Below the pieces are notes generated by a model that saw only the letters and a list, made by a program, of their open reading frames with translations, was not told the DNA's origin and searched no databases. From Candidatus Gastranaerophilales bacterium (GTDB taxonomy: Bacteria > Cyanobacteriota > Vampirovibrionia > Gastranaerophilales > Gastranaerophilaceae): DNA of 64,000 nucleotides. The stretch covers positions 62,001-126,000 of the forward strand of contig CANPYW010000001.1 in assembly GCA_947588745.1 (NCBI GenBank), in the 5' to 3' direction. Positions 52,408 to 64,000 of this stretch are shown here, one piece after another (the first letter of the stretch is position 1; every line of letters starts with the position of its first letter). The translations under genes and the position numbers were made by a program.

Positions 52408-53283
52408 CTAAACTTTTTGAAATAAATATATATATTCATGCTTAAAGATGTAGAAACCGCCATTTAAAGCCCTATACCGCCACAAATTAGCAGTTTTACC
52501 TTTAGCCCGTTCATTGCCTTCCATATTTTTTACAATTACGGCTTTCATCTTAAATCCGAGTTTTCTCATTATAGCCGCACAATCTGAACTGAGCGGAACT
52601 ATTTCTCCGTTTGCATATTTATCCCCAATTATCAAAGCTGCAAATCTATTTTTTTCAAGCATATCATAGCCATTTTTAGCAGTCTTTTCAAACAAGCGGT
52701 AAAATTCTTCAGTTGAACTACAATTAGACAAATCTTCTTTTAAGTCCGAAAACTTAATAATATCATCATAAGGCGGATGAAGAATAAGAAACTGAGCCTG
52801 TTTTTTACGCATTACATCAAGTCTTGCCTGAATTTTTTCCTGAACATATTCAGAGGAACTGTCAGCACATATAATATTTACATCCGTAACAAGTTCTTTT
52901 GGCGAAAACTTACTTTTTACTATATCAACTTGATTTGGCTTCAATTCAACACCAATGCAGCGTCTTTGCATATTTTTAGCTTCTATTGCGGATGTACCGG
53001 AACCTAAAAATAAATCAAGAACGACATCACCTTTTTTTGTAAATCTTTCAAACAATTGCTGTGCAATTTGAGGAATATAATTGCCATGATATTCGTTAGA
53101 ATGACCATGAGTATTATCTCTTGAAGCAAATTCCCACCACGTATCAGTTTTAATATGCTGATAATTTTTCCAATTATTTAAGTCAATATCGCTGTACGGT
53201 TTTGTTTTTACTTCTTTTACAACCCTCAATACAGGTTGTTGTTCTGATATTTTTACTTTTTTTGTATTATTTATTCTTCCCAT
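52408..53283 (-). CDS. Orphan DNA methyltransferase (amino-group, HPPY motif)
   Basis: A 291-aa SAM-dependent DNA methylase of the N4/N6 amino type. Motif I is DLFLGSGTSAIEA (about 94), followed by RRCIGVELKPNQVDIVKSKF. Motif IV is LILHPPYDDIIKF (about 168), where the usual D/N/S of D-P-P-Y is His. WWEFASRDNTHGHSNEYHGN near the N-terminus is like the substrate-side segment of this class. Motif I precedes motif IV. There is no restriction enzyme or specificity subunit nearby. It may regulate genes epigenetically or come from a mobile element. RNA methylation is an alternative. Confidence 0.8.
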   Translation of the reverse strand: MGRINNTKKVKISEQQPVLRVVKEVKTKPYSDIDLNNWKNYQHIKTDTWWEFASRDNTHGHSNEYHGNYIPQIAQQLFERFTKKGDVVLDLFLGSGTSAIEAKNMQRRCIGVELKPNQVDIVKSKFSPKELVTDVNIICADSSSEYVQEKIQARLDVMRKKQAQFLILHPPYDDIIKFSDLKEDLSNCSSTEEFYRLFEKTAKNGYDMLEKNRFAALIIGDKYANGEIVPLSSDCAAIMRKLGFKMKAVIVKNMEGNERAKGKTANLWRYRALNGGFYIFKHEYIYLFQKV

Positions 53284-53413: not shown

Positions 53414-53443
53414 TTTTTCATAAACTGGTTGAAGGAATTGTGT

Positions 53444-55153
53444 ATGAAAAAAATTTTATCATTATTTTTATCGTTCTTAATTTTATTCATTTCAGGGCTA
53501 CCGATTATGGCAGTTCCCGTTAGTGAAGATGAAAATCTTGCTGCTTCCCTGCTTCAATATAAAGATGTAGAAAAAGGCACATATACGTTTAGAAGTAAAA
53601 TCCCTGACAATATCAAGATAAAAAAGCAAAACGGGAAATTTGGAGTTATAAATTCCGAAAATAATAGTGTTTTAATTCCGTTTGAATATGAAAAGATAAA
53701 AAAACTCGGTAAAGATACCGTAAAGGTAAAAAAGGACGGGAAATGGGGCGTACTTACAAATAATAACAAACTTGTTATGAAGAATGATTTTGAAAAAATT
53801 TATATTATGAGAATAAATAACAAAGCTCCCAAAGATATTATTCATTCTATATATTTTGGCAAAAAGAACGGCAGCTTATATGCGGCAACTCCGGGAAGAA
53901 CCTCCAAAGATATTTTTGAAAAAGCTTTTAATAAAAATAACGAACTTTCCTGGATTAAGTTTTACAATTATCCGAAAGAAGGTATAATTGTTGTTCAAAA
54001 ATCTGATAAATACGGATTTTTAATGACAAAAGGTTCGGAATCCTGGCTTATAATGCCTGAATATGAAGATTTTTATATTCAAGATAAAGGCACAACCGTA
54101 TTTCAGCAGTTTCAAATATCCTATTCAAATCCTGACTATATAATAGTCAAAAAAGACGGGAAATGGGGTATATTAAATACAGACGGTACAATAAGCGTTG
54201 ATTTTCAGTATGAACAAATTGTTATGCTCGAAGCTACCATTGATGAGGACATTGATAAAATAGGTGATAATCTTGTTTTAACATATAAATCCATAACTTT
54301 TCCGCAAGAGAACTATTTAATTGCAAAAAAAGATGGAATGACGTATATAATTGATAAAAAAGGTAAAATATACGCTCAGAAAAAAACTGTTAAAAACGAG
54401 ATTACATTTAATGATACGTCATCAAAAGATTTTTTAAACGAAATTTATAAAGAAAATAATGCTAAAGCATTTGTCAAATTTAAGAATTATCCTAAGTATG
54501 GCATATATGTAACAAAAAACAAATACGGAAAACAAGGACTTGTAATTTCAGAGCCGGAAAAAAATTATATAATTCCTCAAGAATATGATGAGTTTAAATT
54601 TCAAGACTCAAATACGGGGATTTATAAACAGCTTGGAATTTCATTTTCCGACGGAAATTCAATACTTGCGAAAAAAAGAGGAAAATGGGGATTAATAGAT
54701 AAAAATAACAATATTATTCAGGACTTCAAATACAATAAAGCAATTATACTTGCTGCAAGACCTAAATCCAAAGCATCTTTTGACAAAAACGGAGTTACAA
54801 TAGAATATGAAAGTATTGATTTTCCCAAAAGCAATTTAATTCTTGTAAAAGAGAACAAAAAATACGGCGTAATAGACAGAAACGGAGAGGTAATAATACC
54901 TTTAAGACATGAATTTGTTAAGAAAGAATACATAGACCAATATGCACTTAAAGACGGCGATAAAATTGCAATGTTATATGATGATAATTCATTAACGGAT
55001 AACGTCCTTTTGGCAAATTCAGATGACTCATTCGGGCAAAAAGTGCTTTCAAATACCGGTTATGTTCTTGGATGTATAATTGCAATACCGGGATTTATAA
55101 TATTAAGTCCGTTTTTAATATGGATGTTTCTTTCTTTTGGCGGTGGGTGTTAA
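53444..55153 (+). CDS. Exported WG-repeat protein with internal duplication
   Basis: A 569-aa protein with a signal peptide (MKKILSLFLSFLILFISGLPIMA). At least six WG-type units follow (NGKFGVIN, DGKWGVLT, DGKWGILN, RGKWGLID and KKYGVID among them). The middle is two long homologous modules of about 150 residues each (roughly 160-310 and 345-495). The C-terminus has a hydrophobic anchor (GYVLGCIIAIPGFIILSPF). WG repeats form beta-propeller-like surface modules of poorly known role. I chose ATG 53444 with AAGGAA upstream. The next gene starts one base after its stop. Confidence 0.85.
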   Translation: MKKILSLFLSFLILFISGLPIMAVPVSEDENLAASLLQYKDVEKGTYTFRSKIPDNIKIKKQNGKFGVINSENNSVLIPFEYEKIKKLGKDTVKVKKDGKWGVLTNNNKLVMKNDFEKIYIMRINNKAPKDIIHSIYFGKKNGSLYAATPGRTSKDIFEKAFNKNNELSWIKFYNYPKEGIIVVQKSDKYGFLMTKGSESWLIMPEYEDFYIQDKGTTVFQQFQISYSNPDYIIVKKDGKWGILNTDGTISVDFQYEQIVMLEATIDEDIDKIGDNLVLTYKSITFPQENYLIAKKDGMTYIIDKKGKIYAQKKTVKNEITFNDTSSKDFLNEIYKENNAKAFVKFKNYPKYGIYVTKNKYGKQGLVISEPEKNYIIPQEYDEFKFQDSNTGIYKQLGISFSDGNSILAKKRGKWGLIDKNNNIIQDFKYNKAIILAARPKSKASFDKNGVTIEYESIDFPKSNLILVKENKKYGVIDRNGEVIIPLRHEFVKKEYIDQYALKDGDKIAMLYDDNSLTDNVLLANSDDSFGQKVLSNTGYVLGCIIAIPGFIILSPFLIWMFLSFGGGC

Positions 55154-56287
55154 ATGATTGAAATTTATGATAAAGAAAATATAAACGAAATAAAAAAAAG
55201 CCTCACTAATAATCAAGAGGCTTTTTTTAATTATTTTGAGCCTATAATGCAATCGGGAATTAACTGTTTTATCAAAAATATTAATTGCGAAATTAAAATT
55301 TTAAAAATTAATGATTTGCTTATTCCCCTCGTTTTTACAGATAGAAATTATGACGATTGCCTTTATACGTCACTACTTTCTCACTACATCAAATATATAA
55401 GTGAAGAATTTGATAAAAAAAATTCAAAGTTTAATTTTATTTTAAAATTTATAGAAAAATATCTTATCAAAAACGAAATCAACAAAACAATATACGTAAA
55501 TCAATGGTTTATTTCAACCAATTTGTACCCGGCATTAACAAAAGATGATATTCAAGAAATTACGGATTTTCTAAAAATCAATTATAAAAATTATGCCATA
55601 GTTTTTAAAAATATCATTAAAGAATACGATACAAATTTATATGAAAATCTCAATAGACAAGGATATAAAGAAATCATTTCACGTCAAATTTTTATAAATG
55701 ATAAAAAAATGACAAAAAATTCAAAACAACGTGCAAAGGTAAAAAAAGATTTTAAATTTTATATTAATTCGAATTATAAAGCATACAAAGTTCAAAACAA
55801 CGATGATTATACGAGAATAAAAGACATTTATACAATGCTTTATATTAAAAAGTATTCAAAATACAACCCTTTATATACAGAGGAATACTTTAAACTAACG
55901 GCATTTAATCCTATATTTAATTTAACAGTATTCAAAAATAAAAACATAATTGACTCGATGTGCTTAACACTTGCAAACTCAAACGTCATGACAGCACCCG
56001 CAGTAGGTTATGATTTAACTATGAGCAAAGATTTAGGTTTATACAGAATTATCTCTGCTTATATTGGTGAGCTATACAATAAAAACTACGCTATATTCAA
56101 CATGAGTGCGGGAATAGGCGAATTTAAAATGCAAAGAGGAGCTAAACCTTATTTTGAATACCTAATGATTTACTATAATCATTTACCTGCAAATAAAAGA
56201 ATTATGTTTTATATCTTAAAATCTTTCGTTAATAAAATAATTCCAATATTGTGTAAATATAAATTATGCGGTTTTGTCCGATTATAA
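55154..56287 (+). CDS. GNAT-like acyltransferase (BioF2/FemAB-like)
   Basis: A 377-aa protein beginning directly after the WG-repeat stop (TAAATG), so it is translationally coupled. The C-terminal half has the order found in BioF2-like/FemAB-type GNAT domains. LTVFKNKNIIDSMCLTLANS is followed by PAVGYDLTMSKDLGLYRIIS, then AIFNMSAGIGEFKMQRGAKP, and a final basic region. A basic stretch (SKQRAKVKKDFKFYINS) lies just before it. The N-terminal half is not recognised. It may transfer an acyl or aminoacyl group. Its last 6 bases overlap the convergent amidohydrolase gene, linking it to the cluster. Confidence 0.65.
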   Translation: MIEIYDKENINEIKKSLTNNQEAFFNYFEPIMQSGINCFIKNINCEIKILKINDLLIPLVFTDRNYDDCLYTSLLSHYIKYISEEFDKKNSKFNFILKFIEKYLIKNEINKTIYVNQWFISTNLYPALTKDDIQEITDFLKINYKNYAIVFKNIIKEYDTNLYENLNRQGYKEIISRQIFINDKKMTKNSKQRAKVKKDFKFYINSNYKAYKVQNNDDYTRIKDIYTMLYIKKYSKYNPLYTEEYFKLTAFNPIFNLTVFKNKNIIDSMCLTLANSNVMTAPAVGYDLTMSKDLGLYRIISAYIGELYNKNYAIFNMSAGIGEFKMQRGAKPYFEYLMIYYNHLPANKRIMFYILKSFVNKIIPILCKYKLCGFVRL

Positions 56288-57124
56288 TTTAAGAAGTTTT
56301 TCACCCCTATTAAATATACTTTCTTCAAAACCTAAATCTTTAAACATATTATACCAATCATCAAAAATATTCGAATTAGCTTTTAAATTTATATATGGAT
56401 AACATGGATAATCAGTTGCAAAAATCAACTTTTGACAAAGCTCTTTATCCTTTAAAAGTTTTTTTAAATAAGATTTTCTGTAAAACCAAATCATTGCACT
56501 TAAATCACCGTATAAATTTTCATATTTACGGGCTAAATTACACCAACATTCAAAATAATCTTTTTCCCAAAAATTTAATTTAGCACCTAAGTGTGCAGCA
56601 ATAACTTTTACACCAGCGTTTAATGCAGCATTCAATCTGATAGGATTATTCAAATCCTGATTTCCGCCTTTTATTGTATGTTCTATTCCCGTATGAACCA
56701 ATAACGGAATATTATATTCCTTTAGCAATTCATAAAATTTAAAACACCGCTTATCTGCCAAATCAACATTTTGATATGAAGGCAGAATTTTTATTAAAAC
56801 AGCATTTTCTTCAATAACTTTTTTAAATTTATTTTCTAAATCGTTATCATAAGGATTAAGGTTTGCCCCAAAAAGAAAATTTTTATTTTCTGCACATATT
56901 TTTACACATTGTTCATTATTTGCACAAGTTATTACATTCTCTATTGCACAAATAACTGCTTTATCAACTTTACTTTTTTCTAAAGACTGTGACATTTTTT
57001 CATAATATTGTTCATAATTTTTCGTTTTAAGTCTTAAAAAGAACATTTTTGTTGTGAAATTATGCTTAAAAGTTTTTATATCAAAGTTTGAATTTATCAT
57101 GTGTGAATGAATATCAATAATCAT
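56282..57124 (-). CDS. Metal-dependent amidohydrolase (TIM barrel)
   Basis: A 280-aa amidohydrolase-2 type protein. Metal ligands are in MIIDIHSHM (His-x-His), LLVHTGIEHT, VIAAHLGAKLNFWEKDYFE and LIFATDYPCYPYI. It probably hydrolyses or decarboxylates a small organic compound. ATG 57124 overlaps the upstream gene's stop (ATGA). A GTG at 57136 is less likely. It is the last gene of the seven-gene minus-strand operon and may release, trim or recycle a pathway intermediate. Confidence 0.82.
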   Translation of the reverse strand: MIIDIHSHMINSNFDIKTFKHNFTTKMFFLRLKTKNYEQYYEKMSQSLEKSKVDKAVICAIENVITCANNEQCVKICAENKNFLFGANLNPYDNDLENKFKKVIEENAVLIKILPSYQNVDLADKRCFKFYELLKEYNIPLLVHTGIEHTIKGGNQDLNNPIRLNAALNAGVKVIAAHLGAKLNFWEKDYFECWCNLARKYENLYGDLSAMIWFYRKSYLKKLLKDKELCQKLIFATDYPCYPYINLKANSNIFDDWYNMFKDLGFEESIFNRGEKLLKL

Positions 57125-58149
57125 AACAATGCACACTCCATATAAATATTATTAAATTTATCAACATCAATATTTTTATCCCAATCAACAAGATAAACAA
57201 AACTTTTATATTTAATAGGCGGCTTAATTTCTTTTAATTCCTGAGTGCTTCCATACACAAAAAAATCATAACAGGCACAGTTCGATATTTGCCTTATAAA
57301 ATCAGCAAGAACGTTTTCATCTCTATATAAAACATAAGAAAGAGTTTGATATTTTATAACCTCACGTTCATTAGGGAATTTAGGGTATGAAAAGAATTTT
57401 AATACCGGATTAAAAATAGTTTTTAAAATCTTATATTTTAAAGAATATTTCTTTATTATTAATTGTTTATAATCCGTTTGTTCCCATAATAAACCGCAAG
57501 CTTGAATATTATTTTCTTTGTCTTTCAGAACATAAAAATTATCTAAATCTGTTATTTCCGGGAAAAAATTCTTATTTTTGGAATAAAAATCAATAAAATC
57601 TTTTAATTTAGATTTTTCCTGCTCATTAATTTTTTCACAAATATATTCAGATTTATATTCTAAATTTTTAGGGAAAATATTAACCGTAAAATCTGCTATT
57701 TTAATGTAATACGGCATTACTTTCCTTTTTTTTGTAAGCATTTTTTGAGCATAAAGATTATCTTCCAAAATCGTTGTAAAAGTATATTTGACATTATTTT
57801 CTCTAATAAAATTTTCCAGAATTTTATATGCTTCAACAATATTTAAAACAGAATTTTTATCAATCCTGAACCCGCCTAAATAAGCAATATTTTCATATTT
57901 CCCATTAAAAAGCATTTTGAATATCTGACAAATTCCAACTCCTTTTATCATGCCTGTTTCTACTTCTTTACCGACCACAACGGCACTTTTTAAACAATCT
58001 TTATTTACGGATAAAACAGCATTAGTACGTCTGGCATATATCAAACTAATATCACCGTTAAAAGCAGTTTGTTCAAGCAGTTTTGAAATTTCTTTGCCGT
58101 CAGAGTCATTTGCCAATTCATATTTGTATTTTTTATTTTGAAACGGCAT
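57121..58149 (-). CDS. GNAT-family acyltransferase
   Basis: A 342-aa protein. Residues about 10-150 read as a GNAT domain: KEISKLLEQTAFNGDISLIY, then SAVVVGKEVETGMIKGVGIC, NIAYLGGFRIDKNSVLNIVE (the acyl-CoA-binding strand region) and ILEDNLYAQKML. A second, weaker part follows (ITDLDNFYVLKDKENNIQAC and FVYLVDWDKN). I chose ATG 58149 because AAAGGG is 8 bases upstream. It overlaps the preceding radical SAM gene by 17 bases and the following amidohydrolase by 4. It probably acylates a pathway product. Confidence 0.78.
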   Translation of the reverse strand: MPFQNKKYKYELANDSDGKEISKLLEQTAFNGDISLIYARRTNAVLSVNKDCLKSAVVVGKEVETGMIKGVGICQIFKMLFNGKYENIAYLGGFRIDKNSVLNIVEAYKILENFIRENNVKYTFTTILEDNLYAQKMLTKKRKVMPYYIKIADFTVNIFPKNLEYKSEYICEKINEQEKSKLKDFIDFYSKNKNFFPEITDLDNFYVLKDKENNIQACGLLWEQTDYKQLIIKKYSLKYKILKTIFNPVLKFFSYPKFPNEREVIKYQTLSYVLYRDENVLADFIRQISNCACYDFFVYGSTQELKEIKPPIKYKSFVYLVDWDKNIDVDKFNNIYMECALL

Positions 58150-59470
58150 TATCAAGGCCCTTTCCGACAGGTAAATTTAATTTTTCATCTATTTCTCGCC
58201 TTAAATTAAAATTTTGAGTAAAAAATATCATAAGCAGAAATAAATCTTTATTCCTAAGGAATTGTGCTATGCCTCTTTTTATAATATTTTTAACCGAGAA
58301 AAATTCCCGCCTTGCATCTGCACAATAATTTCTTAACTCCATATATGGCATAGCTAAAGGTTTATAAGGAATATCACCATATTTATAATCATCTTTAAGC
58401 CACCACTTATCATATAAAAGTCTGTTTTCATTTTTTAACCTTTGATACAAAGGAGTACCCGGAAAAGGTAATAAATGATTAAACGCAGCATAAAAAAATT
58501 TATGTTTTAAAGCAAAATCAATTGTTCTTCTAAAGTTTTGCGGATTATCAAAATCAAAACCGAATAAAAATGTTGCATAAATACTTATCCCTTTTTTATG
58601 TATTTTTTCTATTAACGCATCGGTTTCTCCGAGTTTATAATTCCAGCTTTTATTCATTTGGTCAAGATTTCTTTCATCCATTGACTCAAATCCTATCAAA
58701 ATATTTTTACAACCACTTTTTGCCATTAAATCCAATAATTCATCATCTTGGGCAACATTTAATGCCGTTTGCGATGTCCACGAAATTTTAAGAGGAATTA
58801 AAGCTCTGCATAAATCTTTTAAATGCTCTTTATTCGCACAAATATTATCATCGACGAAAAAAATCATTTTAGGTTTTATCTGCTTAATTTCTTCAATTAT
58901 TTTTTCAATGGGCCTTGCCGTATATTTATGATTATAAAAAGTCGTTATTGAACAAAATTCACAATTATTTGGACACCCCCTCCCTGTTTCAATTAAAGAA
59001 AGAGGAAGATACTTTTTTCCCTTAAATATACTTCTATCAGGTAAAATATCAGAAAATTTATTTTCTCCGTAATATTTCTGCTTTAATTTATTTTCTGAGA
59101 AATCATTTAAAACCGTTTTCCATATCATCTCAGCATTACCGGATATTACAGAATCTGCGTGTTCAAGAGCTTCATCAGGGATTGCCTGAACGTGATAACC
59201 TCCCATTATTACTTTTTTACCTTTATTCCTAAATGTATCGGCAATAATATAAGCTCTATGTGCAGTATAAGTTTCGACACTTATTAAAACCAAATCAACA
59301 TCAATATTATAATCAATATTTTCAATTCTATCGTCAAAAAAGAAAGTTTCTATATTTTTAGGGGTAAGTGATTTTAATGTTGCAACCGTTAAAGGCTCCA
59401 TTTTCCATGTGCCTATATATTTTTCATTATCTTTTTTACCTATCGCAGGTGTAATAAAAAGAATTTTCAT
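58133..59470 (-). CDS. B12-binding-type radical SAM protein, third in operon
   Basis: A 445-aa protein with an N-terminal cobalamin-binding-like domain (KILFITPAIGKK, VLISVETYTAHRAYIIAD, GYHVQAIPDEALEHADSVIS). A radical SAM domain has RGCPNNCEFCSITTFYNHKY (Cys at about 170-177), then FFVDDNICANKEHLKDLCRA, ILIGFESMDERNLDQMNK and HLLPFPGTPLYQRL. The DxHxxG cobalamin motif is not obvious, as in many members. The family (BchE, HpnR, HpnP and related) performs methylations, rearrangements or cyclisations. It is closely similar in outline to the partial paralogue at 62925-64000. It lies 12 bases after the preceding radical SAM gene. Confidence 0.88.
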   Translation of the reverse strand: MKILFITPAIGKKDNEKYIGTWKMEPLTVATLKSLTPKNIETFFFDDRIENIDYNIDVDLVLISVETYTAHRAYIIADTFRNKGKKVIMGGYHVQAIPDEALEHADSVISGNAEMIWKTVLNDFSENKLKQKYYGENKFSDILPDRSIFKGKKYLPLSLIETGRGCPNNCEFCSITTFYNHKYTARPIEKIIEEIKQIKPKMIFFVDDNICANKEHLKDLCRALIPLKISWTSQTALNVAQDDELLDLMAKSGCKNILIGFESMDERNLDQMNKSWNYKLGETDALIEKIHKKGISIYATFLFGFDFDNPQNFRRTIDFALKHKFFYAAFNHLLPFPGTPLYQRLKNENRLLYDKWWLKDDYKYGDIPYKPLAMPYMELRNYCADARREFFSVKNIIKRGIAQFLRNKDLFLLMIFFTQNFNLRREIDEKLNLPVGKGLDNAVSK

Positions 59471-59482
59471 AAATACCTTCTT

Positions 59483-60814
59483 TTATATCGGAATATCACT
59501 ATTATCACATAATCGTTCTTTTGTATACACCTTAAACTTATCAGCCCAGTGCATATATGCAAAGTTTGCGGCATATTTTATAAAAAACATACTATCAGGC
59601 TTAAAGCCGAGTCTTTCGATTATATTAGACAATTTATATGTTTCTTTCCAAGCCCAATCAACGCCTTGATATAATTCATCAACACTCATATTTTTAGGCA
59701 GAAAACAAACATGTTCAACATCATACATTGCATTTTCCGTTTCTATAATACGATTTTGTGCCATTAAACTATTATAAAACGGAGTACCCGGAAAAGGAGT
59801 AATTATTGAATATCTTGGTAAATCTATCTTTAATTTTTGAACCGCCTCAACAGTTTTTTCAAACACATCTTTATCATCTTCATCACCGCCAAAAGCAAAA
59901 CATCCGTTAACCGTAACTCCGATATCATGAAGCTGTTTCATTAACAATTCATAATTTGCAGTCTTATTAACACCTTTGTTTACAAAATCTTGTGACTTCT
60001 GATTTATTGATTCAAAACCAATTAAAAGCCCTTTACATCCGCTTTTTTGAAGCAATTTCATAAGTTCTTTATCAAGAACAACCGCAGATGTTGTTAAACC
60101 GAACCAAATTTTATTTAACGGTATCATAGCAGTAAAAAGTCTTTTTGCATAATTTATATCACTTATAAGATTTACATCTGGAAATAAAACCTCTTTTCCT
60201 TTCAAAGTTTTCATCTCTGCTATAACATCTTCAACGGGTCTAAACAATATATTTCGCCCGAATGCGGCAGGATAAGCACAAAACGAACAATGATGAGGAC
60301 ATCCTCGTATAACTTCCATTGTATTATAAGTCACATAAGAATTTTTCTTTAATATGTCACGTCGTGGAAAAGGTCTATTAGCAAGTGATTTAGATTCATA
60401 ATCCGAATATTCATGTTTTAATTGCCCGTTTTTATAATCCCAAAGTGCCTGAGGGAATGTATAATCCCCAAGACCGGTAAATAATACATCACAATGAAGT
60501 CTTGCTTCATTCGGTCTTAAAGAAGGATGAACACCGCCTAAAAAGACCTTTATTCCTTTTTTTCTGTAATAATCAGCCCAGGCATAAGCTCTTGAGGCAG
60601 TACCTGTTATTGCGGTTATAGCAATTATATCCGCTTCAATATCCAAGGGAATTTTTTCAACTGTTTCATCATAGAATTTAATTTCAGCATTAAATTCCTG
60701 CGGCACGAGTGAAGCCAATACAGGAGCAGTCATAGGTGCATAATGAAGTGCTTTTCCGAAACTTCCGTTATATCTGTGCATAGCCCCTGCAGGTGATAAA
60801 AAAACTATTTTCAT
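59483..60814 (-). CDS. B12-binding-type radical SAM protein, second in operon
   Basis: A 443-aa protein. The N-terminal cobalamin-like domain is at about 1-150 (MKIVFLSPAGAMHRYNGSFG, IIAITAITGTASRAYAWAD, KVFLGGVHPSLRPNEARL). The radical SAM motif is VIRGCPHHCSFCAYPAAFG, followed by GLLIGFESINQKSQDFVNKG, FAFGGDEDDKDVFEKTVEAV and YSIITPFPGTPFYNSLMAQN. It is more distant from the other two. The start ATG 60814 overlaps the GH3 stop by 4 bases. An upstream TTG at 60850 was rejected. A methyl or rearrangement reaction on the GH3 product or its precursor is plausible. Confidence 0.88.
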   Translation of the reverse strand: MKIVFLSPAGAMHRYNGSFGKALHYAPMTAPVLASLVPQEFNAEIKFYDETVEKIPLDIEADIIAITAITGTASRAYAWADYYRKKGIKVFLGGVHPSLRPNEARLHCDVLFTGLGDYTFPQALWDYKNGQLKHEYSDYESKSLANRPFPRRDILKKNSYVTYNTMEVIRGCPHHCSFCAYPAAFGRNILFRPVEDVIAEMKTLKGKEVLFPDVNLISDINYAKRLFTAMIPLNKIWFGLTTSAVVLDKELMKLLQKSGCKGLLIGFESINQKSQDFVNKGVNKTANYELLMKQLHDIGVTVNGCFAFGGDEDDKDVFEKTVEAVQKLKIDLPRYSIITPFPGTPFYNSLMAQNRIIETENAMYDVEHVCFLPKNMSVDELYQGVDWAWKETYKLSNIIERLGFKPDSMFFIKYAANFAYMHWADKFKVYTKERLCDNSDIPI

Positions 60815-62253
60815 GATACAAATTTTCCCATAAAATCCATAATTGTACAATTAGAAAAAATTTTAGGTTTAATGTCACCTATTTTTTGTCCTTTTTTTTG
60901 ACATATTTCAATATATTGATTTAAGCCGTTTTTCAGTGTAATAATTCTGAAACGCCGAAGTTGATTTAGCTTACGTGCATAATTATAGTGAAAATTCTTT
61001 AATAATTCATTTTCGAATTCCACTTCCGATTTTATTAAATTCAATTGTGATTTTGGCTCAATATAAAGTACATAAAAGAACTCATTATCCCTTTTATACG
61101 GTGCAAACAGGCAGAAATAACTATTAATGTCAATCTTTAAACGGCTTATTATATCTAATACAAAATCTTCATTAAGTTTTTCACCAAAATAGTCAGAAAT
61201 ATTATTTCCTCTACCAATAAATTTTATAAGCGGGCAATTATTGCTGAAATCATATACATTAATAATATCTCCGGTATTATAACGGTAGAACCCGCCTTGA
61301 GTAGTTACAATCACCTCATAATTTCGACCTTTTTCAAGTTCCTGCAACAATTTTAACTTTTTTGTTTCGATATCTGTAAATTCAAGAAAATGAGATGTAA
61401 AACAAGGCACTTTACCCATATTTTCAATTGGAACGGATATCAAAGCTTCGGTTGACAAAAGTCCTTTCCCTTGAATTTTCACATCCGGAAACAGTGATTT
61501 TAATTTATCAAAATACATTTTAGAATTCCCATCATCCCAGCAGCTTATAAGCTTTAAATCTTTCCATATATTCTTAGGTGAATTTTTTAATTTTTCAACC
61601 AAAAGAAGCAATAATGAAGGACTCCAAACAGAAATAAGCCCCAAAGACGGAAATTGAGATAAAAAAACAGCACTTGTTTCTATAACATCATCATTATTCA
61701 AAACAGGCGGAATAACAATTTTTTTCGATATAATATCTGCAAAATCAATATCAAGATAATCAATATCATTTTCAAACCCTATTTTAACTTCGGATTTAAC
61801 CCCTTGTTGCTTAACTTTCGGAGTAATCGACCAATACATGGGACGATTAATTATATCGGGGAAATTTAAAAATAAATCACTTAACCATGGTTTTATACCG
61901 TTATTAAATGCATTTTTTAAACCTTTTGTATACGGAATTAACTTTAGTTCTCCGCTTGAACCTCCTGTTGGCTCAAGCAAAATAACATCTTCAGAAGTTA
62001 AAACATTTTTTTTCCCCAACATAATTTCTTTTATATATACTTCATAATCTTTATATTCCGTTACAGGAACAGCCTCTTGATACTCGGAAACTGTTTTAAT
62101 TTTTTCAAAACTATATTTTTTCCCGTAATTTGTATATGAATTATTTTTTAATATTTTCTTTAAGATATCCGTCTGCATAAAATCAATTTTACCCAACGCA
62201 GACAAGAACTCACTTCTTATATTTTCAAAAAGCTCATTATATGCCGAGTACAC
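60811..62253 (-). CDS. GH3 (auxin-responsive)-family acyl-adenylating amidosynthetase
   Basis: A 480-aa protein matching the GH3 family of the adenylate-forming superfamily. The ATP motif is LLEPTGGSSGELKLIPYT, a second is KIQGKGLLSTEALISVPI, and YRYNTGDIINVYDF is the core Y..GD motif. Plant GH3 proteins join carboxylic acids to amino acids through an acyl-AMP. Bacterial relatives occur in natural-product settings. I chose GTG 62253 because AAGGCGGG lies just before it. An upstream GTG at 62292 is the alternative. It overlaps its neighbours on both sides, so it is a core gene of this operon. Confidence 0.85.
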   Translation of the reverse strand: MYSAYNELFENIRSEFLSALGKIDFMQTDILKKILKNNSYTNYGKKYSFEKIKTVSEYQEAVPVTEYKDYEVYIKEIMLGKKNVLTSEDVILLEPTGGSSGELKLIPYTKGLKNAFNNGIKPWLSDLFLNFPDIINRPMYWSITPKVKQQGVKSEVKIGFENDIDYLDIDFADIISKKIVIPPVLNNDDVIETSAVFLSQFPSLGLISVWSPSLLLLLVEKLKNSPKNIWKDLKLISCWDDGNSKMYFDKLKSLFPDVKIQGKGLLSTEALISVPIENMGKVPCFTSHFLEFTDIETKKLKLLQELEKGRNYEVIVTTQGGFYRYNTGDIINVYDFSNNCPLIKFIGRGNNISDYFGEKLNEDFVLDIISRLKIDINSYFCLFAPYKRDNEFFYVLYIEPKSQLNLIKSEVEFENELLKNFHYNYARKLNQLRRFRIITLKNGLNQYIEICQKKGQKIGDIKPKIFSNCTIMDFMGKFVS

Positions 62254-62938
62254 GTTTTCCCGCCTTATTAAGATTTTCCTCGGATAATTCACTTATGCAT
62301 ACAAGTTCATTACCTTTATAATAAAATGGATTTTTTCGAACAAAAAATTCTATATTTTTATCCTTAAGCTTTTCTTCCGGTATTTTTGAAAATTCTTCTT
62401 TTAAATAGTCTTTTTTGCCATTCAGAACAATAATTCCGGTATTTTTATCATAATTTAAAGGATAAAATTTTTCGCCGAAATAATTTATTAACTTTTGCTC
62501 AAAATCAGGAGTTGATTTATCAAATCTGGGATAAAATTCTTTATAAAATGAAGATAAATATTTATAAGTTTTATATCCTTTTGACATTAAAAGCCAATAA
62601 AGCCCCTCTTTGAAATTTGTTTTCATACTAAGTGCATTTTTAATCCACACTTGCATTAAATCATTATTTGACCAGTAATCTTTATGTATAACTGTATCAC
62701 CTGAAAAAAGAAGCTTAACTTTTATACCGTCAATTTGAGCATCATATAAAACAATTGTAGTAAAACCTTTTATACCGCCTTTATCATCTTTAAGCAGAAT
62801 TATTCTGTTCTTTTTTTTCAAATCAGAAATGAAGTTAGTTTTCGTTACATTTTCATAATACTCAGACATCAACTCATACATAGACTCAACTTCATCTGAC
62901 GATATTTCCTGTAAAAGATATACCTTACCTTTCAGCAC
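62237..62938 (-). CDS. GNAT-family N-acyltransferase
   Basis: A 233-aa protein. Residues 5-150 read as a GNAT domain: SSDEVESMYELMSEYYENVT, then ILLKDDKGGIKGFTTIVLYD, KVKLLFSGDTVIHKDYWSNN (the CoA site region) and LYWLLMSKGYKTYKYL. The C-terminal part (SKIPEEKLKDKNIEFFVRKN) is unassigned. The start is GTG with AAGGAA 5 bases before. It overlaps the partial radical SAM gene upstream by 14 bases and the GH3 gene downstream by up to 17. It may supply the acyl group to an amine used by the GH3 enzyme. Confidence 0.75.
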   Translation of the reverse strand: MLKGKVYLLQEISSDEVESMYELMSEYYENVTKTNFISDLKKKNRIILLKDDKGGIKGFTTIVLYDAQIDGIKVKLLFSGDTVIHKDYWSNNDLMQVWIKNALSMKTNFKEGLYWLLMSKGYKTYKYLSSFYKEFYPRFDKSTPDFEQKLINYFGEKFYPLNYDKNTGIIVLNGKKDYLKEEFSKIPEEKLKDKNIEFFVRKNPFYYKGNELVCISELSEENLNKAGKRVLGI

Positions 62939-64000
62939 TGTTATTCCTTTCCAGATAGCGTTTTAAACCAAACAGCATACCTTGTTTTTTATAAACTTCT
63001 TTTCTGAATAAAGGATTATAAATCCAGTATATAATAAACCTGTGCAATGAAGCCATATTTGTATTAAATTCAAACATACGATATAACAATGATGACGGTT
63101 TATTAAATTCGTTTCTGCAATAAAAACCGACTTCCGAAAGTTCATCAGGTGTCATATTTTTAGGTATGAATGCTGCATTATTAAATCTGTATGAATCATC
63201 AAGCCACCATTTCCCTCCGTATAATAATCTGTTTTCTTCTTTAAGCTTATTATATAAAGGTGTATTCGGATAAGGCATTAAAATATTAAAAGCAGCAAAT
63301 GTGAATTTATTTTGAATTGAGAAATCTAATGTAGCTTTTATACTTTCAACGGTATCTGTATCATGCCCGATAGTGAATGCTGCCCACGTTTGAAGCCCCC
63401 AATATCTCAATCTTTCAATTTCCCATTTGAATTTGTTAAACCCGTTTAATTTGTTAACTCTTTTCCCCATAAAATCAAGACTTGCTTCATTAATCGATTC
63501 AAAGCCCATTACAAAACCCAAACCACCGGATTTAACAATAAGTTCCATTAACTCATCATCATATAACATATCAATGCTACCTTGACTAACCCAATGAACC
63601 TTCAACGGAATTAATGCCTTTAAAAACTCTTTTGCTTTCTCTTTATTAGCTGCAAAATTATCATCAACAAAGAATAAAAATTTTCTATTTTGGAATTCTA
63701 TCTCTTTTATAACTTCATCAATATTTCTTGTATAATGGCGGCTGTTAAAATATCTGCTGACAGCACAGTAATTACAATTATGCACACAGCCTCTTGAAAA
63801 TTGAATTAAAGAAATAGGAAGATACCCCTTGCCTTTATATAAATCACGTCTGGGGAAAACCCCTTTTTGAGGAGGTATGACAACACCGCCTTCATATACT
63901 CTTTTAAGATTATTAGTTTTAAAATCTTCTATAACTTTATCCATAATATTTTCCGCATCGCCAAGAATAATGCTATCGCAATGTTCAAGCACCTCTTCCG
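62925..64000 (-). CDS. B12-binding-type radical SAM protein, partial at right edge
   Basis: An open frame of about 358 residues continues past the right edge, so the N-terminal cobalamin-like domain is mostly missing. The visible part starts near EEVLEHCDSIILGDAENIMD, matching EALEHADSVISGNAEM of the paralogue at 58133-59470. The radical SAM motif is FSRGCVHNCNYCAVSRYF. FFVDDNFAANKEKAKEFLKA, GFVMGFESINEASLDFMGKR and LMPYPNTPLYNKLKEEN follow. It is the most upstream gene of the operon visible here and overlaps the GNAT gene by 14 bases. Confidence 0.87.
   Translation of the reverse strand, partial: EEVLEHCDSIILGDAENIMDKVIEDFKTNNLKRVYEGGVVIPPQKGVFPRRDLYKGKGYLPISLIQFSRGCVHNCNYCAVSRYFNSRHYTRNIDEVIKEIEFQNRKFLFFVDDNFAANKEKAKEFLKALIPLKVHWVSQGSIDMLYDDELMELIVKSGGLGFVMGFESINEASLDFMGKRVNKLNGFNKFKWEIERLRYWGLQTWAAFTIGHDTDTVESIKATLDFSIQNKFTFAAFNILMPYPNTPLYNKLKEENRLLYGGKWWLDDSYRFNNAAFIPKNMTPDELSEVGFYCRNEFNKPSSLLYRMFEFNTNMASLHRFIIYWIYNPLFRKEVYKKQGMLFGLKRYLERNNSAER

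Follow-up and report, generated by a model that had tools for sequence, protein, structure and literature searches.

Organization of the operon and its enzymes

The window analyzed here is a 64,000-nucleotide stretch of DNA from Candidatus Gastranaerophilales bacterium, occupying positions 62001-126000 of a contig that is 133,865 bases long, in a genome of 2.0 Mb. Its right-hand end is occupied by a gene cassette that combines a GH3-family acyl-acid amido synthetase with B12-type radical S-adenosylmethionine (SAM) enzymes. Seven minus-strand open reading frames of this cassette lie within the window (56282-63998) and, as a sequence-only reading of the same DNA had described, they overlap (ATGA-type overlaps) or abut, with gaps of −17 to +12 bases. 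The operon also continues beyond the right edge, as that reading had anticipated: flanking contig sequence extends it to 66278 (outside the window, coordinates are window-equivalent, i.e. L002 position + 61999) and supplies the remainder of rS3 as well as rS4 and TM224. In the order of transcription, the nine genes are TM224, rS4, rS3, GNAT1, GH3, rS2, rS1, GNAT2 and the amidohydrolase. Comparison with orthologues indicates likely starts at GTG 62253 for GH3, ATG 60814 for rS2 and ATG 57124 for the amidohydrolase; with starts corrected in this way, the spacings from the 3′ to the 5′ end of the operon are −4, −17, +12, −4, −17, −14, −50 and −1 bases. This layout supports a single co-transcribed biosynthetic unit.

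The B12-type radical SAM enzymes number three in the window, as predicted by the sequence-only reading, and four in the complete operon: rS1 (58133-59470), rS2 (59483-60814), rS3 (62925-64000 in the window, with the 5′ part reaching to about 64304) and rS4 (64255-65604, beyond the window), all on the minus strand. In each of the four, the radical SAM domain scores over the Pfam cut-off (4e-19 for rS1), and the three cysteines of the CxxxCxxC motif are invariant in 18 sequences. In the direct scan, the N-terminal B12-binding domain of rS2 (35.1 bits) is over the cut-off of 32.1 bits, and those of rS3 (31.1), rS4 (28.9) and rS1 (26.3) are under it; in the genome scan rS3 and rS4 reach the cut-off and rS1 does not. 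The best-scoring NCBIfam models for these genes are HpnJ and BchE, both below cut-off (HpnJ, 81-110 bits against 577.6, best 110.4; BchE, 71-94 bits against 481.35, best 93.8). HpnR (42-71 bits against 650, best 70.5) and TIGR04072, a ladderane-type (‘ladder’ lipid) B12-radical SAM family, are likewise below theirs. HpnJ and HpnR of hopanoid synthesis and TIGR04072 represent the same enzyme class, are lipid-linked and are among the better-scoring models, but the rS proteins fall far under all of the equivalog cut-offs. Weak matches to rSAM_ocin_1 and ApyD, two families linked to ribosomally synthesized and post-translationally modified peptides (RiPPs), are also far below cut-off.

GH3 (60811-62253, minus strand) is assigned by three Pfam domains, GH3, GH3_M and GH3_C, with its N-terminal, central and C-terminal parts scoring 116.4, 63.3 and 30.7 bits, respectively, against a Pfam cut-off of 23.6. 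Its matches in the PDB are plant GH3 amido synthetases, and the ATP motifs TxGSSGxxK, LxTE and GGxYRYxxxD are largely kept in six orthologues. The closest named bacterial GH3 is OlsH, the lyso-ornithine lipid synthetase of Singulisphaera, which makes N-acyl ornithine (PMC12493201). It belongs to the same family, carries ATP motifs that are largely the same and sets a bacterial example of a GH3 producing an N-acyl amino acid; however, it works with an alpha/beta hydrolase, OlsI, and no radical SAM enzymes, whereas the cassette has them. In the phylogenetic tree, a branch with support of 100/100 separates the GNAT1-linked GH3s from other GH3s of the same class, once two weakly placed rows (L090 and L104) are set aside.

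The sequence-only reading had also named two GNATs and an amidohydrolase. The latter stands, together with GH3, on Pfam evidence, and the GNATs have much weaker support. Neither GNAT1 (62237-62938, minus strand) nor GNAT2 (57121-58149, minus strand) of the window matches a Pfam family. GNAT1, the marker of the system, has a GNAT fold as judged from a predicted model of low confidence (mean pLDDT 51): the Foldseek matches listed are all GNATs or acetyltransferases, the best with an E-value of 2.6e-6. An alignment of 13 homologues shows the invariant motifs SGDT, W-L, KG, TY and NP. The canonical acyl-CoA loop, Q/R-x-x-G-x-G/A, is not found in GNAT1; by our reading, the corresponding stretch is mostly W-S/G-x-N-x-L, and the protein may use a different donor. 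GNAT2 is a probable two-domain acyltransferase, an assignment made through its Citrobacter homologue, which barely exceeds the Acetyltransf_1 cut-off (21.0 bits against 20.7), the structure model of GNAT2 itself being unusable. Profile searches of the PDB with alignments of GNAT1, GNAT2 and the amidohydrolase returned nothing significant. The amidohydrolase, encoded by the last gene of the operon (56282-57124, minus strand), matches Amidohydro_2 over the cut-off (34.8 bits against 26.4; E-value 2e-8), and its metal ligands H10xH12, H148, H182 and D242, which follow the ACMSD-like pattern HxH...H...H...D, are invariant in five orthologues. TM224 (65604-66278, minus strand, beyond the window), a conserved membrane protein of 224 residues, has no Pfam family. 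Judging by its invariant residues (GKFR..HGF, FWN.IYDI.A..CGFI and AP.YF..FGF), it is probably a membrane enzyme.

Distribution of the cassette and its oxygenase-type counterpart

Within Gastranaerophilales, GH3 is present in five of 286 genomes. All nine genes occur in the same order in two of the relatives, G200 and G193, which is beyond what chance would give, and a rabbit-gut locus (L011), the only one retrieved when a genome collection was scanned with GH3, has the first six genes before its contig ends. Relative to G200, nonsynonymous divergence (dN) is 0.06-0.23 and synonymous divergence (dS) is 0.9-1.4 per gene, with dN/dS well below 1 for every gene; the nine genes are under purifying selection. 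A variant shared by G155 and G062 comprises rS1-like and further B12-radical SAM genes, GNAT2, GNAT1, GH3, a hexapeptide-repeat (LbH) protein, the amidohydrolase and another radical SAM gene. In a further Gastranaerophilales genome, a degraded GNAT1 match with three stops (G153:C38:1665-1868; E-value 1.6e-4) suggests a past loss of a cassette.

The set extends to another phylum. A tblastn search with GNAT1 led to a plasmid of Citrobacter portucalensis, where GNAT1, GH3, rS2, rS1, GNAT2, rS4 and rS3 are followed by genes for a PAP2 phosphatase and a hypothetical protein and by a fifth radical SAM gene. The plasmid orthologue of rS3 is 53% identical to it, and in the tree the Citrobacter enzymes pair with rS3 (100/100), with rS4 (100/98) and with the rS2 group (89/91), the latter also containing enzymes of G290 and G155. 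The placement of rS1 with its Citrobacter counterpart, the closest by similarity, is not resolved in the tree. Homologues of seven genes occur together on this plasmid, which makes the set a cross-phylum and probably a mobile one. Searches of E. coli genomes gave no counterpart of the Citrobacter cassette, and those of viral contigs no relative of GNAT1. Base composition was not telling as to a recent foreign origin in the window, the cassette having a GC content of 29.4% and the window 32.7%.

Reduced or altered versions delimit the core. Two genomes from other families of the phylum, G290 and G402, hold rS1, rS2, GNAT2, GNAT1 and GH3 (G402 also TM224), and these five genes therefore look like the core of the radical SAM form, with rS1 and rS2 as core tailoring enzymes. 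From this gene content, rS3, rS4, the amidohydrolase and TM224 look like additions. Acinetobacter has GNAT1, GH3, an efflux protein and GNAT2 next to HlyD/EmrA-like genes, with an amidase also there, and Burkholderia has GNAT1, GNAT2 and GH3 plus a Rieske protein. The overall core is GNAT1 and GH3, usually with GNAT2.

Across the phylum, the GNAT1 profile has matches in 31 of 386 genomes. In larger genomes of other families, which we take to be photosynthetic cyanobacteria, GNAT1 is accompanied by two or three Rieske proteins, ferritin-like, AurF-like and FA_hydroxylase-family proteins, an LbH protein and GH3. At two loci (L088 and L095), an FA_desaturase takes the place of the Rieske set next to GNAT1, GH3 and GNAT2, and an Mpo1-like domain is also among the partners of the core in relatives. 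None of the 33 loci carries both B12-radical SAM and Rieske/AurF-like genes, and the cassette of the window has neither Rieske nor CylC-like enzymes. The exchange of enzyme kits is linked to oxygen respiration: COX1 is absent from all seven genomes with the radical SAM type and present in 13 of 14 with the oxygenase type, the exception being G313, which is 88% complete (Fisher p = 7e-5 in a test that ignores kinship). At the two desaturase loci, we also observed a protein of roughly 1000 residues (L088:2253-5297 and L095:16730-19597), which in L088 is a fusion of an NQR2/RnfD-like membrane domain with FG-GAP and ASPIC/UnbV domains; UnbU/UnbV-type proteins occur in enediyne clusters.

The oxygenase-type loci fit the published description of the ‘Rieske-containing’ clusters, a large CylC-type group in cyanobacteria that has no known product, encodes a CylC homologue besides two to four Rieske proteins and in most cases adds a protein of the sterol desaturase family, and for which substrates from fatty-acid metabolism have been proposed (Eusebio et al. 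2021; PMC8406957). That paper names no GH3, acetyltransferases or radical SAM version. The loci found here share with the description the Rieske, AurF/CylC-like, ferritin-like and FA-hydroxylase/sterol-desaturase-family proteins, and their GNAT1 and GH3 are homologous to those of the window, which differs in having no oxygenases and, instead, four B12-radical SAM enzymes, GNAT2, the amidohydrolase and TM224. The identification was made by description rather than by published sequences; since the AurF/CylC-like protein had no match in the PDB, its assignment as CylC rests on weak AurF matches and on the fit to that description. The sequence-only reading had ranked the operon as the window's best candidate for an undescribed system. 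It missed both the spread across phyla and the aerobic cluster, which is a known orphan. Searches of the open-access literature, which did not extend to subscription papers or preprints, turned up no cluster combining GH3 with radical SAM enzymes and no account of the radical SAM form, the shared GNAT1/GH3 core, the carriage on an enterobacterial plasmid or the oxygen-linked exchange of enzyme kits.

The genes next to the cassette are less constant. A convergent plus-strand gene (55154-56287) encodes up377, a protein of 377 residues without a Pfam match, which overlaps the 3′ end of the operon by six bases and is treated here as associated with it. It lies at the same place in G193 and G200, and a homologue is present in G030. 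Next to the cassette variant of G062, a fragment of about 73 residues (L015:6625-6855) is a decaying copy. Homologues of up377 also end an unrelated conserved operon in G095 and G015 (L114:4667-10962 and L115:4497-10956), which, by our reading, includes KAS III-like, ATP-grasp, SDR, MBL-fold and AMP-ligase-like genes and appears to be a second uncharacterized pathway in the order. The flanks differ among carriers except for up574, a WG-repeat protein encoded upstream of up377 (53429-55153), which also adjoins the cassette in G193 and not in G200. Further to the left lies a putative N4/N6 DNA methyltransferase gene (52408-53283), kept in most genomes of the genus, with no adjoining restriction partner visible. 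In G193, this methyltransferase gene of the left flank and the cassette are on different contigs, and the radical SAM genes of the right flank exist in multiple copies, so that a clean empty site was not demonstrable. In the right flank (L002:4322-9795, window-equivalent 66321-71794), next to the cassette, five short and mutually related genes for MoaA-like radical SAM proteins of 325-377 residues lie in mixed orientations, and DNA related to this stretch is multicopy in the genus. A SPASM-like gene at 66321 was left out of the cassette because other carriers have no homologue at that place.

Proposed pathway and alternative explanations

We propose that the cassette encodes a pathway that works without O2 and yields a tailored fatty-acyl amide associated with the membrane, a lipid resembling an N-acyl amino acid, and put the probability of this reading at about one half. 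A lipid-like product is suggested by the fatty acid (FA) hydroxylase, FA desaturase and Mpo1-like partners of the core in relatives, by OlsH, and by the lipid-related nature of several of the nearest B12-radical SAM families. The following substrates, order of steps and roles are those that we infer. GH3 would adenylate a carboxylic acid, long-chain or modified, and couple the acyl-AMP to an amine that is probably an amino acid. The role of GNAT1 and GNAT2 would be either the transfer of one or two additional acyl groups or the preparation of the amine. Using SAM radicals and cobalamin, rS1 and rS2, and then rS3 and rS4, would methylate or oxidize unactivated carbons of the chain; the amidohydrolase could trim the product by deacylation or decarboxylation, and TM224 could complete or flip it. 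In the aerobic relatives, Rieske, diiron and fatty-acid-hydroxylase enzymes are found beside the GNAT1/GH3 core in place of the radical SAM enzymes. Chlorophyll biosynthesis, in which the B12-radical SAM enzyme BchE and the O2-dependent diiron enzyme AcsF do the same step in different organisms, provides a precedent for such an exchange of tool kits, although it concerns another substrate and other families. The acylated or amidated lipid or signal molecule envisaged in the sequence-only reading gains indirect support from the FA hydroxylase and desaturase genes beside relatives of GNAT1/GH3 and from N-acyl ornithine formation by OlsH.

Several observations weigh against this proposal. The cassette of the window contains neither a fatty-acid-modifying enzyme nor a carrier protein, and GNAT2, TM224 and up377 are without a firm family. 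The OlsH membership of GH3 is rejected by its score (45.9 bits against an equivalog cut-off of 620 for NF052613). In our motif alignment, the catalytic P-loop serine S115 of OlsH, reported as essential (PMC12493201), corresponds to Gly110 in GH3 of the window and of L011, a serine being present in four of the six orthologues. The Fisher value for COX1 overstates independence, many of the compared genomes being related. Finally, the Acinetobacter version adjoins EmrAB/TolC-like exporter genes, a setting that equally fits a soluble product.

Alternatively, GH3 might condense an amino acid with a short or aromatic acid, and the product, a soluble small molecule such as an antibiotic, siderophore or signal, would be exported. 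The PDB matches of GH3 agree with this, being plant enzymes that conjugate small acids to amino acids, as do the HlyD/EmrA-like and outer-membrane efflux genes and the amidase around GNAT1-GH3-GNAT2 in Acinetobacter and a predicted ABC-type exporter next to GNAT1 in G431 (judged by the start of its sequence). However, no transporter is encoded in the cassettes of Gastranaerophilales, Citrobacter or G290, and FA hydroxylase, FA desaturase and Mpo1-like domains stand beside the core in relatives; we regard a soluble product as unlikely, if still plausible. Many B12-radical SAM enzymes act on RiPPs, and the weak matches to rSAM_ocin_1 and ApyD could be taken as a sign that these enzymes C-methylate a ribosomal peptide. 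Yet a precursor gene would not fit between the genes of the operon, where gaps are 12 bases or less, the flanks vary among carriers (small flanking reading frames were not systematically searched) and the scores for RiPP families are far below cut-off, which makes such a pathway improbable.

A hopanoid or tetrapyrrole route of the HpnJ, HpnR or BchE type could be suspected from the top NCBIfam models of the radical SAM genes, but all scores are far below cut-off and the cassette lacks any squalene-hopene or tetrapyrrole gene, which makes it highly improbable; the operon does not encode a standard hopanoid route. Nor is there much to be said for unrelated enzymes that share an operon and serve separate pathways. 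Homologues of up377 do occur in other operons, and some carriers lack the amidohydrolase, rS3, rS4 and TM224, but synteny contradicts this explanation: the order is the same in three genomes, and both a gammaproteobacterium and members of other families in the phylum have the core set. We give it hardly any credence.

Implications

Beyond the proposed fatty-acyl amide, a broader and more tentative possibility, for which we would give somewhat less than even odds, is that an acyl-amide pathway conserved in at least two phyla exists in two interchangeable forms, that the aerobic form relies on Rieske, CylC-like and fatty-acid hydroxylase enzymes, that in the anaerobic form two to six B12-radical SAM enzymes perform the equivalent C-H chemistry on the same scaffold, and that the product belongs to a new class of lipids or signals. 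The shared GNAT1 and GH3 core offers a handle on the ‘Rieske-containing’ clusters. Because the anaerobic version is a second, oxygen-free enzyme set for what may be the same scaffold, the aerobic and anaerobic forms can decode each other. The cassette would also add four functionally unassigned B12-radical SAM enzymes with a defined context to a class prized for its chemistry on unactivated carbons. Gut Melainabacteria have a biosynthetic gene set in common with an enterobacterial plasmid, and this set may have a part in interactions with the host or among microbes; if the two forms are indeed interchangeable, gut cyanobacteria would make a new class of lipids or signals, and an enterobacterial plasmid would encode its production as well.

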